Source: Methanosphaera sp. (GTDB lineage Archaea > Methanobacteriota > Methanobacteria > Methanobacteriales > Methanobacteriaceae). From it: DNA of 64,000 nt. Shown here piece after piece: positions 5,973 through 53,646 of the stretch. Below the pieces are notes generated by a model that had not been told where the DNA came from, ran no database searches, and saw only the letters and a program-made list of their open reading frames with translations. The position numbers and the translations under genes are program-made. The stretch's first letter is position 1; each line of letters opens with the position of its first letter. Location: NCBI RefSeq assembly GCF_022768985.1, contig NZ_JALEKL010000009.1:124001-188000 (forward strand). The letters run 5' to 3'.

Positions 5973-6163
5973 ATCTTATCTTTAAAAAAAAATCTAGGTT
6001 TAAGTATAATTATATTTTTATTTTTAACAATACTTATAATTTTAGTATATAAAACATGACTAAAACTTCAGTTAATAATAATAATAAAAATTAGTTAATA
6101 AAAAGAAATGATTTTAAGACTATAAACTATAAAAAGGAGGTTAAGGGGTTGTGGAGTATTTAC

Positions 6164-6712
6164 TTATAATAAGTTTTCTCCAAGTTTCTGTGCTCTTTTT
6201 ATTTGTTCATCAGATAGACTATTTGGTTCATTAACATCTCCAAAGCATTCAATATCCATAATTTTAAATCCAAGTGATTCAAATCCTTTTGCTGCAAGTT
6301 CTGCAGATGCTCTGAATTCATCTTCATCTGCTATTTCTTGTGTTGTTATTATTGAAAACTTCTTACCTTTATATTCTTCTGGAAATGTTGAAAGATAGAA
6401 TGCATATAGTCTATCAATAAATATTCTAGTTATTCCTGTTAGGTCAAAGAAGTATATTGGTGATGCTAAAACTACTCCATCACATTCTTTAAGTGCACTA
6501 TATAGCTGTTGCATGTCATCATTTACTGGACATTCACCATTGTGTGATTTACAATAGTCATCTCCTTGACAGTCTGCTATATTCATCTTTGTTAGATCAA
6601 AGATTTCAACATCAGCACCATTATCTTTTGCTACATCCAATGCTAGATTTAATGCTGTTGTTGAATTACTTCCTTTTCCTCTTGGACTGGATGTTATACC
6701 TATTATTTTCAT
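6164..6712 (-). CDS. flavodoxin-fold NAD(P)H-dependent FMN reductase / Fe-S flavoprotein-like, copy 2
   Basis: 182 residues. The N-terminal MKIIGITSSPRGKGSNSTT is the FMN phosphate-binding loop of the NADPH-dependent FMN reductase superfamily. LASPIYFFDLTG near residue 85 is the second flavin-contact segment. A three-Cys cluster, CQGDDYCKSHNGEC (about 49-62), sits where methanogen iron-sulfur flavoproteins carry their cluster ligands, but only three Cys are present and the spacing differs, so an Fe-S cluster is uncertain. Likely a cytosolic flavin-dependent reductase, perhaps in redox or oxygen protection. It follows a close paralogue with an 18-bp gap. A C-rich/T-run 3' signature follows the stop on the minus strand (about 6130-6155). 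Confidence 0.8.
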   Translation of the reverse strand: MKIIGITSSPRGKGSNSTTALNLALDVAKDNGADVEIFDLTKMNIADCQGDDYCKSHNGECPVNDDMQQLYSALKECDGVVLASPIYFFDLTGITRIFIDRLYAFYLSTFPEEYKGKKFSIITTQEIADEDEFRASAELAAKGFESLGFKIMDIECFGDVNEPNSLSDEQIKRAQKLGENLL

Positions 6713-49818: not shown

Positions 49819-50232
49819 TTATGATTTATCTGGAAGTTTTTTCTGATCTGAATCATATGAACTTCCTATTAGTTTTCCAGATTTTGTATCATATTGTCTG
49901 AAGTTACCATCTGAATATTCAACTTGTCTGTAGTGACTTCCATCACCTGCTTGGTAGTTTTCACGTACATCTTCACTTACTACTGATGGTCCTGAATGTC
50001 CTGAATGGTGTGATGATGATGCTGTTGATTGTTCATGATGATCACCTGCTGGTGTTGTTGTGTTGTTGTCTGTTGTATTGTTTGTATCGTTAAGTGTTGT
50101 GTTGTTTGCTGTTGTGTTATTTGTTGTATTGTTTTGATTCATCATTGATGGTATTATTGTTGCTGCTGCACATACTAGGGCTGCTACAATAACTACTGCA
50201 ACGATAATGGTTATTATTCCTCTTTGTCGCAT
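49819..50232 (-). CDS. membrane-anchored surface protein with C-terminal SDGxFRQY motif, copy 1
   Basis: 137 residues. A short basic N-terminus, one hydrophobic segment (IITIIVAVVIVAALVCAAATI, about 6-27), then an Asn/Thr-rich linker with about ten N-x-T sequons that could be glycosylated, a His/Ser-rich patch (HHSGHSG), and a C-terminal motif YSDGNFRQYDTKSGKLIGSS plus YDSDQKKLP (about 107-134). The same motif ends the next gene. I do not recognise the family. It is probably exposed at the surface on a flexible stalk. A GGGAGG sits before the ATG. Confidence 0.68.
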   Translation of the reverse strand: MRQRGIITIIVAVVIVAALVCAAATIIPSMMNQNNTTNNTTANNTTLNDTNNTTDNNTTTPAGDHHEQSTASSSHHSGHSGPSVVSEDVRENYQAGDGSHYRQVEYSDGNFRQYDTKSGKLIGSSYDSDQKKLPDKS

Positions 50233-50357: not shown

Positions 50358-50777
50358 TTATTCAATTGATGGAAGATATTTTTGATCTTCAGGATATGAA
50401 CTTCCTATTAGTTTTCCTTTTTCATTATATTGTCTAAATCCTCCATCTGAATATCTAATTTCTTTGAAGTATCCTCCACTATTTTGTCCATTTTTAACTT
50501 TTTTTATTGAAACTACTTTTCGTTGAACACCTTGTTTGTTTTTTGATACTTTTTTTCCTTCTTTTTTTAGTGCAGCTTTTACATCTAGATTTTTTAGATT
50601 ACATTTTACTGTACTTTGTTTTATGTTGTCTTTTATGTTTTCTTCTAGTTTATCTTGATTTAAATCTGTTTTTTTCACTGTATCTTTATGTTGTATGTCT
50701 GATGTTGCACATGCACATGACATTGCTGCCATCATTATGCATACAAACATTACAGCAAATAATGATTTTGATTTCAT
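50358..50777 (-). CDS. secreted protein with C-terminal SDGxFRQY motif, copy 2
   Basis: 139 residues. A signal peptide (MKSKSLFAVMFVCIMMAAMSCACA) with Cys near the cut site, then a Lys-rich middle and a C-terminal YSDGGFRQYNEKGKLIGSS plus YPEDQKYLPS that matches copy 1 nearly residue for residue. The middle differs. The shared ending suggests a common small domain, perhaps recognised by a surface or export partner. It is not a known domain to me. GGTGATAAA precedes the ATG at about 5-9 nt. Confidence 0.68.
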   Translation of the reverse strand: MKSKSLFAVMFVCIMMAAMSCACATSDIQHKDTVKKTDLNQDKLEENIKDNIKQSTVKCNLKNLDVKAALKKEGKKVSKNKQGVQRKVVSIKKVKNGQNSGGYFKEIRYSDGGFRQYNEKGKLIGSSYPEDQKYLPSIE

Positions 50778-50987
50778 AGTTTATCACCCACTTTTTAATA
50801 ATTTTTATGATTATCTATCTTTTATTTTAATTATTTATAGTTAATTTGGAGTGTTTTTTAGTATTTTACGAATTATTTATTCTTTTTTTTAGGTTATTAT
50901 CAAGCTATTTTTATAGTTTTTTATTTCTAAAAACCTTTTTTTATTATGATTATTTTTTCTTATTTTTTTAATTAAAAAAAAAATATT
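50778..50987. other. AT-rich intergenic region upstream of duplicated module
   Basis: About 210 bp, almost wholly A and T, with long T-runs. It holds the promoter of the secreted protein on the minus strand but no ORF, tRNA or repeat that I can support. Confidence 0.35.
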
Positions 50988-51070
50988 TTGTCATAACATT
51001 TTTAGAACAACCTTTAAATACTACGTAGTATAAATTATAATTTAGAGTGTCATAATATGTTGTGACACTC
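50988..51070 (+). repeat. promoter/hairpin module, copy 1
   Basis: 83 bp. The order is TTGTCATAACAT, then TTAGAACAACC with a TATA-like CCTTTAAATACTA, then TATAAATTATAATTTAGAG, then a perfect 8-bp stem GAGTGTCA (51045-51052) / TGACACTC (51063-51070) with a 10-nt loop. TGTCATAA occurs on both sides of the TATA element. A near copy lies 245 bp downstream. Confidence 0.75.
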
Positions 51071-51232
51071 AGAAAAATACCTAAATAATATAAAATAAAA
51101 ATACTAAAAACTTTAAAAATAACCATTTAATTGGATAAATAAAGCATAATTATATTATTTAGATATTGAAAGATAAGTGATCATGAATTATTATAACATG
51201 AAAAAAAGCCTTTCAAAAAAAAATTAAAATAG
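51071..51232 (+). other. spacer between the two modules; possible short transcript
   Basis: About 160 bp between the two modules. It has no ORF of note. If copy 1 is a promoter it would transcribe this stretch, so a short RNA is possible, but no folded structure strong enough to call was found. Confidence 0.25.
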
Positions 51233-51316
51233 TTGTCAGAAATATATTAGAACAAAACCTTTATATACTAATGACTATAAATTATAATTTAGAGCGTCAT
51301 AAAAATATATGACACC
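51233..51316 (+). repeat. promoter/hairpin module, copy 2
   Basis: 84 bp with the same order as copy 1: TTGTCAGAAATAT, TTAGAACAA, TATA-like CCTTTATATACTA, an identical TATAAATTATAATTTAGAG, then GCGTCATA (51294-51301) / TATGACACC with a 6-bp perfect core GTCATA/TATGAC. It lies about 70 bp upstream of the small ORF of the type I locus and probably drives it. Confidence 0.75.
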
Positions 51317-51386
51317 ACAAAAAAAATAGTGGAGATCAAAAAAATATATAATTTAAAAAAAAATATAGAAAAAGGTGGGATAAGCC

Positions 51387-51578
51387 ATGCAAATAGAATA
51401 CATGGATGAAATAAAACACTTACAATCAAAGATGACAAAATCAAAATTATATTTTCTAAAAAAATCATTACTAGAAAATAAAGAAAATAAAAATAAAAAA
51501 GACAATGTCATAAAATACTTCAATCAAGAAGTATCAGAAAATATGAAATGGAAATTAAGACTAATAAACAACACATAA
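51387..51578 (+). CDS. small basic protein in the type I methylase locus
   Basis: 63 residues, rich in Lys and Asn, without Cys or a membrane span. It reads mostly as amphipathic helix (MDEIKHLQSKMTKSKLYFLK). AGGTGGG stands 5-9 nt before the ATG. It is followed 34 bp later by the specificity subunit, so it is the first gene of that operon, directly behind the duplicated module. I do not recognise the family. By position it could be a controller or an accessory of the methylase; nothing in the sequence shows an HTH. Confidence 0.55.
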   Translation: MQIEYMDEIKHLQSKMTKSKLYFLKKSLLENKENKNKKDNVIKYFNQEVSENMKWKLRLINNT

Positions 51579-51611: not shown

Positions 51612-52172
51612 ATGACACAAAAGAAATTATATGAAATTGCAGATATCATAATGGGAATGAGAACATCAAGATACATAAAAAATGAAAAAGAAGATACAAA
51701 AGAGCAGAAAATATTTGGACGTAAAATAAAAACAGAAGAAGTTGCAAAAGATATAGATGAAAAATTCTATGCAAAAAAAGGTGACATAATACTTTCAACA
51801 GCACAACCATACAAATGTCAAATAATAGAAAATGAAAAATACACAGATACAATAATTCCAATGAAATATGCAATAATTCGAATAAAAGATCCAGAAAAAT
51901 ATGACATATCATACCTCTACTATCTACTAAATAGTGACAGCTGTAAAAAACAAATACAAAGAGTAAATGAAGGAACAGGACCACTTAAAATAGTAAAAAT
52001 GAAAGATATACGTGAATTAGAATTTAACTTCCCAGAAATTGAAAAACAAATAAAATATAGTGAATATCTAAAACTAGTAGATAAAAAAATAGAACTACAA
52101 CAACAAGTTATAGTGATGAATAAGATAATTAAAAAAGACATCATCAATAGAATTGCAAATAAAGAACAATAA
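51612..52172 (+). CDS. hsdS: half-size type I specificity subunit
   Basis: 186 residues. One target-recognition domain (about 1-150: KLYEIADIIMGMRTSRYIKN, then YAKKGDIILSTAQPYKCQII with the typical GDI(I/V) step, then SYLYYLLNS and GTGPLKIVKMKDIRELEF with the family K-I-x-x-L/I-x-x-L/I-E) and one C-terminal coiled coil (KLVDKKIELQQQVIVMNKII). Normal HsdS has two of each (about 400 residues). Half-size forms can pair to recognise a symmetric site. GAGGAGATG precedes the ATG. It lies upstream of the methylase gene, the reverse of the usual M-S order. Confidence 0.82.
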   Translation: MTQKKLYEIADIIMGMRTSRYIKNEKEDTKEQKIFGRKIKTEEVAKDIDEKFYAKKGDIILSTAQPYKCQIIENEKYTDTIIPMKYAIIRIKDPEKYDISYLYYLLNSDSCKKQIQRVNEGTGPLKIVKMKDIRELEFNFPEIEKQIKYSEYLKLVDKKIELQQQVIVMNKIIKKDIINRIANKEQ

Positions 52173-52188: not shown

Positions 52189-53646
52189 ATGGATAAAATT
52201 ACAAATATAATGGGAAAAGTACGTGGATCAAGATTTGCATATGAATATAAAGACTACATATTATCATTCATATTCTACAGATATCTATCAGATAAACAAC
52301 AAAAACTTCAAAATATGAAAGAAGACATCACACAAGATGAAATAAAATCAGAACTCGGATATTATATAGATGAAAAATACACATGGAATAATATAATATC
52401 TAAAATTGAAGATAAAAACATTAAAACAACCACAGATGACTACAAAGAAGTATTTGAAAACTTTAAAAAAGAAGTTCAAGATACAATCTATGATGAAATA
52501 TTCAATTATATTAATTTTGATAATATAGAATTTAGAGAAAATCCAATAGATAATGAAATAGGAATATTAGATGAAATCACATTAATTATCAATGAAGTTG
52601 ACTTTGAAAATCCAGATAAAAGTATTGGTGAAATATTTGAAGAATGTATTGAACAATTAGGACTTCAAGGTAGAATAGGAGAATTCTACACACCATGTGA
52701 GATAAGTGATCTTCTTGCTGAAATTGTAACATGCAACATTAAAGATAAGAATCAATCATTTAATATCTATGATCCAACAGTAGGATCTGCATCACTACTT
52801 CATAAAGTAGGTCAAAAACATGGAGGTTCTAATATTAAATACTTTGGACAGGAAATTAACTATAATACATACAACATGGCATGTATGAATATGTTAATTA
52901 ATGATATTAAACCTGATAATATCAAATTAAATCATGCAGATACACTAGAAGATGATTGGCCATGCTATATTGACTATGATGGAGTAAATCAGCCATATAC
53001 ATTCGATGCAGTAATTTCAAATCCAACATATTCAATGAGGTGGAATAATAAAGAAAGAAGTGATGATCCAAGATTTAGTGGATATGAACGCTTACCACCA
53101 AAATCTGACTATGCATTCATACTTCACAGCCTATATCACTTAAATGAAACAGGAACAATGGCAATTGTTCTACCAGAAGGTGTACTTTTCAGAGGACTTA
53201 ATGAAAGAAATATTAGAAAAACACTAATTGATGAAAACTACCTTGATTGTGTTATAAGACTACCTGAAAATCTCCTCTACTATACAAGAATTTCTGTTGT
53301 AGTACTGGTATTTAAGAAAAATAAATCCAATAGTGATGTTTTATTTATTGATGCAATCAATGAATATGAATCATTCAGGGGAGGAAATAAACTTACATCT
53401 ATTGATAAAATTATTAATACATACAAAAATAGGTGTGATATAGATGAATTTTCACACCTTGCAACAGTTGATGAAATCAGAGAAAATGAGTATAACCTTA
53501 ATTTACCACGATATGTTGATACATTTGAAGGAATGCCACCTGTTGATATAGATGATTTCCTTAATGAAATAGAAGATATTGAAGAGGAAATAAAAGAAAT
53601 TGATGCAAAACTTGAAGAATATAATAAACAATTAAATCTATTCTAA
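52189..53646 (+). CDS. hsdM: type I DNA adenine methyltransferase subunit with altered motifs
   Basis: 485 residues from ATG 52189, with AAGGGTG 7-10 nt upstream. HsdM layout: an N-terminal helical domain (FAYEYKDYILSFIFYRYLSD), then QGRIGEFYTPCEISDLLAEI, then the SAM motif I reading YDPTVGSASLL (about 195-205), where the family usually has D-P-x-x-G-S-G-S. The catalytic motif IV reads SNPTYSMRW (about 283-291), where N-P-P-Y/F is usual. So both motifs depart from the norm at one residue each. A C-terminal coiled coil (EIEDIEEEIKEIDAKLEEYN) is present. No hsdR follows. It could be an orphan methylase or a weakened enzyme. Confidence 0.85.
   Translation: MDKITNIMGKVRGSRFAYEYKDYILSFIFYRYLSDKQQKLQNMKEDITQDEIKSELGYYIDEKYTWNNIISKIEDKNIKTTTDDYKEVFENFKKEVQDTIYDEIFNYINFDNIEFRENPIDNEIGILDEITLIINEVDFENPDKSIGEIFEECIEQLGLQGRIGEFYTPCEISDLLAEIVTCNIKDKNQSFNIYDPTVGSASLLHKVGQKHGGSNIKYFGQEINYNTYNMACMNMLINDIKPDNIKLNHADTLEDDWPCYIDYDGVNQPYTFDAVISNPTYSMRWNNKERSDDPRFSGYERLPPKSDYAFILHSLYHLNETGTMAIVLPEGVLFRGLNERNIRKTLIDENYLDCVIRLPENLLYYTRISVVVLVFKKNKSNSDVLFIDAINEYESFRGGNKLTSIDKIINTYKNRCDIDEFSHLATVDEIRENEYNLNLPRYVDTFEGMPPVDIDDFLNEIEDIEEEIKEIDAKLEEYNKQLNLF

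Follow-up and report, generated by a model that had tools for sequence, protein, structure and literature searches.

Two diverged promoter copies stand before a short operon in the Methanosphaera window analysed here (the whole 64,000-nt stretch of DNA, AT-rich at 29% GC), and each has its TATA box set between two dyads. The same architecture recurs in front of genes for half-size type I specificity subunits (half-HsdS) in divergent clades of the Methanobacteriaceae, the putative operators occur together with those genes, and the HsdM partner is altered in its catalytic motifs in the window and in many relatives. Taken from these sequence data, a half-HsdS dimer carried by HsdM probably binds the interrupted palindromes and represses its own promoter. 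We further lean towards regarding such pairs as a regulator class of the Methanobacteriaceae, with a half-HsdS dimer as reader and an often dead HsdM as scaffold, in which the TRD would be exchanged together with the TATA-sandwiching operators.

A duplicated promoter with paired dyads and its operon

The two promoter copies (copy 1, 50980–51077; copy 2, 51226–51324) share 78% identity across ~98 bases (E 2e-15, and 8e-14 in a separate comparison), and a weaker alignment reaches ~140 bases; the copies therefore go back to an old tandem duplication and not to chance. The spacer between them (51071–51234, plus strand) lacks a credible ORF, is AT-rich with ~66% gapped identity to the copy 2 leader, and is possibly a continuation of the old duplication. 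Both copies are well supported as archaeal TATA promoters of Methanosphaera-like type by their sequence. On the plus strand, the TATA box of copy 1 is TTTAAATA (51013–51020, context AACCTTTAAATACTA, core AACCTTTATATACTA) and that of copy 2 is TTTATATA (51260–51267, context AAAACCTTTATATACTA), and the core recurs genus-wide. The promoter-proximal and start region of each copy holds an identical 19-mer, TATAAATTATAATTTAGAG, at exactly 51029–51047 and 51276–51294 (plus strand). Judging by TATA spacing, transcription would be expected to start near 51040–51046 in copy 1 and near 51287–51293 in copy 2. The first-pass annotation had described two copies of a module with common elements, and all elements that it named were recovered exactly or within a few bases of where it had placed them, including TGTCATAA at 50989 and 51048 and TTAGAACAA at 51002 and 51247. 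It had also named a dispersed repeat unrelated to promoters as the contrary case. A search of the 1.6-Mb genome found no other copy of the module beyond short AT-rich pieces, and this reading was rejected; the site search that it had suggested placed GTCATA-N6-TRTGACA at the two copies only and nowhere else in the genome. The relaxed pattern GTCNTAN6TNNGAC has three other genomic sites; the one examined in full falls within a coding sequence (L080), and we claim no wider regulon for these operators in this genome.

Each promoter is 'sandwiched': one dyad lies over the transcription start, and a degenerate counterpart directly precedes the TATA box (all coordinates on the plus strand). The downstream candidate operators, GTCATAATATGTTGTGAC in copy 1 (51049–51066, over the initially transcribed bases) and GTCATAAAAATATATGAC in copy 2 (51296–51313, with perfect 6-bp arms and a 6-bp spacer), are 18 bp long with the consensus GTCATA-N6-TRTGAC and begin exactly 36 bp from the first T of the TATA box. 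The upstream candidate operators are GTCATAACATTTTTAGAA (50990–51007) and GTCAGAAATATATTAGAA (51235–51252), which begin 23 and 25 bp, respectively, ahead of their TATA boxes. They had gone unnoticed as dyads: upstream of each TATA box, TTGTCA...TTAGAA repeats the 18-bp dyad in degenerate form, with TTGTCA and TTAGAACAA as its two ends. Against dinucleotide shuffles the paired-dyad score gave p=0.0075 for copy 1 and p=0.005 for copy 2, and the downstream dyad of copy 2 alone gave p=0.003. Two low-complexity A/T sites outscored the pairs in a scan of the 64-kb window, so that the window's own statistic is modest taken alone, and the weight of the case comes from the relatives. The right halves of the upstream dyads are degenerate, which makes them poor operators and counts against the reading favoured below.

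The operon stands behind copy 2; no gene belongs to copy 1. Its first gene is a charged 63-aa ORF with a good ribosome-binding site (51387–51578, plus strand), for which no convincing relative or domain was found and which had only weak matches in 20 genus genomes. The second encodes a half-HsdS of 186 aa with one TRD and one 42-residue C-terminal helix (51612–52172, plus strand; PF01420, E 1e-6). Its AlphaFold model (pLDDT 88, helix 143–184) matched Esub1 best in Foldseek, followed by the HsdS structures 1ydx, 1yf2, 3okg and EcoKI, and the predicted fold, in which one long dimerisation helix follows a single TRD, is that of a half-HsdS homodimer. We propose this protein as the DNA-reading subunit. 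The third gene encodes an HsdM of 485 aa (52189–53646, plus strand; PF02384, PF12161), in which alignment to the canonical motifs shows DPTVGSA for DPTCGSG in motif I (GSG to GSA) and NPTY for NPPF in motif IV; it is probably catalytically impaired and no longer methylating, and we propose that it supports DNA binding. An adjoining HsdR, a two-TRD HsdS and intact HsdM motifs, the marks of a type I restriction-modification (R-M) system, are thus all missing from the operon (HsdR matches of the genome lie on contigs C3, C10 and C12 and at C9:62615), and its own promoter carries candidate operators, as that of an R-M controller would. No HTH protein was found by Pfam among the three products. The initial label of an orphan type I methylase calls for correction: the genes encode a half-HsdS and an HsdM with altered catalytic motifs, and this pair is itself the best candidate for the binder. 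Next to the promoter pair, and pointing away from it, two minus-strand genes (49819–50232 and 50358–50777) encode small, probably secreted proteins with a similar C-terminal segment, in which the stretch AACTTCCTATTAGTTTTCC recurs.

Sandwich promoters and half-hsdS loci in related genomes

A half-HsdS profile search had matches in 99 of 139 family genomes, some of them single domains of full-length HsdS. We extracted 95 distinct half-size proteins, which fell into 18 clades at 50% identity, and scanned the regions upstream of half-hsdS for a TATA box flanked by two 18–19 bp dyads that share half-sites. Sixteen half-hsdS promoters beat all 400 shuffles and two more gave p=0.0025 and p=0.0075. 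The scoring promoters belong to clades 1, 3, 5, 6, 7 and 12, that is, to six clades besides clade 8 of the window. Measured from the first T of the TATA box, their upstream dyads begin at −22 to −35 and their downstream dyads at +30 to +39, with the window alike, and dyad spacers in the scored loci are 6–7 bp. The half-sites vary by clade: GTCTTT/GTCTTA (clade 5), GTCCTA (6), GTMATT (3), GTCATT (1), GTTCCT (7), GTTCAA (12) and GTCATA (8, the window). Dyads of GTAAGT, TTCATA and GTAGTT were seen by eye in clades 2, 4 and 11, respectively, which did not reach the sandwich score. The operator half-sites of clades 3 and 6 have been preserved while much of the intervening sequence has changed.

Several top scorers in a control set of 406 TATA sites were themselves further promoters of half-hsdS or hsd loci, for example one in genome G014, where hsdR is followed by another sandwich that carries the same operator. 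A second sandwich after hsdR was also found in G056 and tandem sandwiches in G023, and extra promoter copies like copy 1 are therefore a recurring feature. In two genomes the second promoter just behind hsdR has the clade-6 operator pair: at locus L063 (~6190–6300, minus strand) no gene directly follows it, and at L173 (~6084–6154) there is a GNAT-type gene ~600 bp on. A scoring sandwich is missing at many half-hsdS loci, including the 41-member clade 0 and most of clades 1, 2 and 4, which weighs against the reading favoured below. For clade 0 (41 genomes) the operator scan gave none, perhaps because the promoter lies further upstream. This clade, the largest found, comes from ~40 genomes of one related genus (g4), where the half-HsdS gene (L122–L169, e.g. 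L136 and L126) is followed by one for an HsdM-like protein of ~560 aa without motif IV; its half-HsdS may be a domesticated regulator.

The candidate operators occur where the matching gene occurs. The clade-3 pattern GTMATTARTNATTAATTAC was found in exactly 7 of 139 genomes, all with a clade-3 half-hsdS on the same contig within ~6 kb (one match for the reversed control pattern), and GTCTTTGTAANNNAAAGAC in 2 of 20 genus genomes (G001 and G003), with two sites each, at the half-hsdS promoter. GTCCTAN6TRTGACA was matched four times in G014, three times in G056 and once in G018, always in an hsd locus, and had one or two scattered matches in each of six other genomes, about the control rate. Over the relatives, paired or repeated matches of the three operators were thus confined to genomes with the matching half-hsdS and lay beside that gene. 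Similarity of half-HsdS tracks similarity of half-sites (Mantel r 0.71 for 19 loci; r 0.60, p 0.013 for eight representatives), with the half-sites hand-assigned from the sandwich scan and some of the representatives related. The co-occurrence, together with the same sandwich and spacing before half-hsdS genes of divergent clades, gives good support to the earlier suggestion of promoters with operator half-sites. Because operators move with their locus, co-occurrence alone cannot separate binding by half-HsdS from binding by another product of the locus.

The half-hsdS gene is the only one common to all loci, and no HTH gene is common to them. Clade 3 has the order R-[promoter]-half-S-M-S, in some cases with an additional gene ahead of half-S, and clade 6 has a divergent R; in L067, as in the window once the 63-aa ORF is set aside, half-S and M stand alone. 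Complete systems (R, M and full S) also have half-hsdS, in first or second place within the M-S operon. In L068 the order is half-S, an altered M, small genes that include a STIV_B116-like one, and then complete R, M and S. The STIV_B116-like gene (PF08960, DUF1874), which belongs to a family of viral ring nucleases, and a second small gene are found repeatedly beside half-hsdS/hsdM, sometimes divergent (L068:5982–6572, L069:8770–9355, L070:10368–10943, L072:7709–8283 and L071:10795–11404).

The HsdM encoded after half-hsdS has lost motif IV (NPPF/Y) in clades 0 (mostly S[KR]IP), 1 (mostly QIPF), 2, 4 (HPPF), 7 (IPP), 8 (NPTY of the window), 11 (DLPL), 12 (CPPF) and 16 (KPPF), and motif I is often damaged too in these proteins. 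NPPF is mostly kept in clades 3, 5, 6, 13, 14 and 17. In L068 and L069 the altered HsdM stands alongside intact M, S and R downstream and is therefore more than a mere relic of a vanished R-M system.

The putative binder and alternative readings

Under the reading that we favour, the operators would be interrupted palindromes with 6-bp half-sites and a 6-bp spacer read by a half-HsdS dimer, which the HsdM partner would hold in the way that type I methylases engage a bipartite target. A half-HsdS2-HsdM2 complex on both sites would block assembly or escape of the transcription machinery, by excluding or trapping it, and repression of the operon would scale with the amount of HsdS-HsdM. Copy 2 would be the promoter driving the operon, and copy 1 an older duplicate, perhaps a distal promoter or an extra operator pair. 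Relatives with half-HsdS leading a full M-S operon would in this way control the level of restriction-modification; in the window only the regulator pair would remain. Interrupted palindromes (GAA-N7-TTC and GCA-N8-TGC) are known targets of half-HsdS dimers, and neither S alone nor M alone binds DNA (PMC3874165, PMC2877798); this mutual need of S and M for DNA binding would explain why a non-catalytic HsdM is kept. Two observations count against half-HsdS as the reader. Half-sites of 6 bases in an 18–19 bp site exceed the usual 3–5 bases of type I TRDs, and the half-sites of nearly all clades begin with GT, which a family of HTH regulators could give likewise.

A separate repressor of the HTH type, linked or global, with half-hsdS as just one of the genes that it controls, is the alternative that fares best, and we consider it unlikely. 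Palindromes ending in GT...AC suit ordinary dimeric repressors, and some type I systems are known to have dedicated controllers (RptR, PMC12255303; HsdC, PMC5282649). The window locus, however, has no HTH gene detectable by Pfam, the loci of relatives share no other gene, and a single global factor cannot account for half-sites that differ among loci even inside one genus. The intact HsdM motifs of clades 3, 5 and 6 raise another alternative, an epigenetic switch in which operator adenines are methylated by an active half-HsdS/HsdM and promoter activity depends on their methylation. The last base of both GTCATA and GTCCTA is an adenine beside the 6-bp spacer, and a methylation interval of 6 occurs in known type I enzymes; in GTCTTT and GTTCCT, on the other hand, the strand that is read into the spacer lacks adenine, the window HsdM is altered in motifs I and IV, and motif IV is missing from the partners of about nine clades. 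We regard such a switch as improbable overall, even though HsdM looks active in clades 3, 5 and 6, where methylation rather than plain binding may matter.

An RNA function of the hairpins, be it as 5′-UTR element, attenuator or short RNA from copy 1, appears more improbable still. The inverted repeats reported in the first-pass annotation are present and fold into stable predicted stems, of −14.8 kcal/mol for GAGTGTCA...TGACACTC in copy 1 and −5.5 kcal/mol for GTCATA-N6-TATGAC in copy 2 (z −4.7 in both), and the missing gene behind copy 1 would suit a short transcript. Any DNA dyad folds as RNA, however, and the dyads are best read as DNA operators because the untranscribed upstream site has the same half-site and, in relatives, matches the downstream one; an Rfam search gave no match to a riboswitch or known RNA, which leaves the proposed short RNA from copy 1 unsupported. 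Mere promoter duplication with chance dyads and no regulation could be argued from the window's p values and the high-scoring A/T-rich sites, but hardly fits the same architecture and distances in six other half-hsdS clades or the restriction of the operators to their loci.

Known systems and meaning for restriction-modification control

The half-HsdS reading has partial counterparts among characterized systems. In the type I R-M islands of E. coli, RptR is likewise the product of a small first operon gene and represses its own promoter through repeated core-promoter sites, but it is a 9-kDa dimeric repressor that sets recognition helices on TAGCTA repeats (PMC12255303), whereas the candidate in the window and its relatives is half-HsdS plus HsdM on clade-specific interrupted palindromes of 18–19 bp. 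HsdC of Mycoplasma gallisepticum (PMC5282649) and the type II C proteins resemble it as controllers linked to R-M genes, with an operator over the promoter and start site and likely feedback, and differ in being HTH proteins without the specificity-subunit fold. The half-S proteins of EcoR124I (HsdS(delta50)/EcoR124INT), the EcoDXXI truncations and NgoAV share one TRD and one helix, and two copies with HsdM read an interrupted palindrome (PMC3874165, PMC2877798). Unlike the loci described here, they are working R-M methylases; here the HsdM motifs are altered, many relatives have a separate full HsdS and the sites are concentrated at promoters of their own locus. Esub1 (PDB 8vsr, 8vsq), the best Foldseek match, is also a single protein of similar size (184–196 residues), with structures solved alone and with the protein Prx. 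An evolutionary discussion in PMC6158711 likens homodimeric regulators on long split palindromes to half-HsdS dimers as a structural comparison only and describes no natural half-HsdS regulator; we found no published one in the open-access literature, to which the search was confined.

Known transcriptional controllers of type I systems are few, and those that we found in the literature are small dedicated DNA-binding proteins. The locus most likely represents, from the sequences compared here, R-M self-control arising from the specificity subunit, outside the HTH controller families. If true, this would account for the leading position of half-HsdS genes in complete hsd operons and for the persistence of so many HsdM partners that have lost catalysis, and it would show a restriction enzyme on its way to becoming a transcription factor. 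With an operator attached to each TRD, the family would also hold a natural catalogue of TRD-to-half-site pairs, which could help to decipher type I recognition without methylome data.
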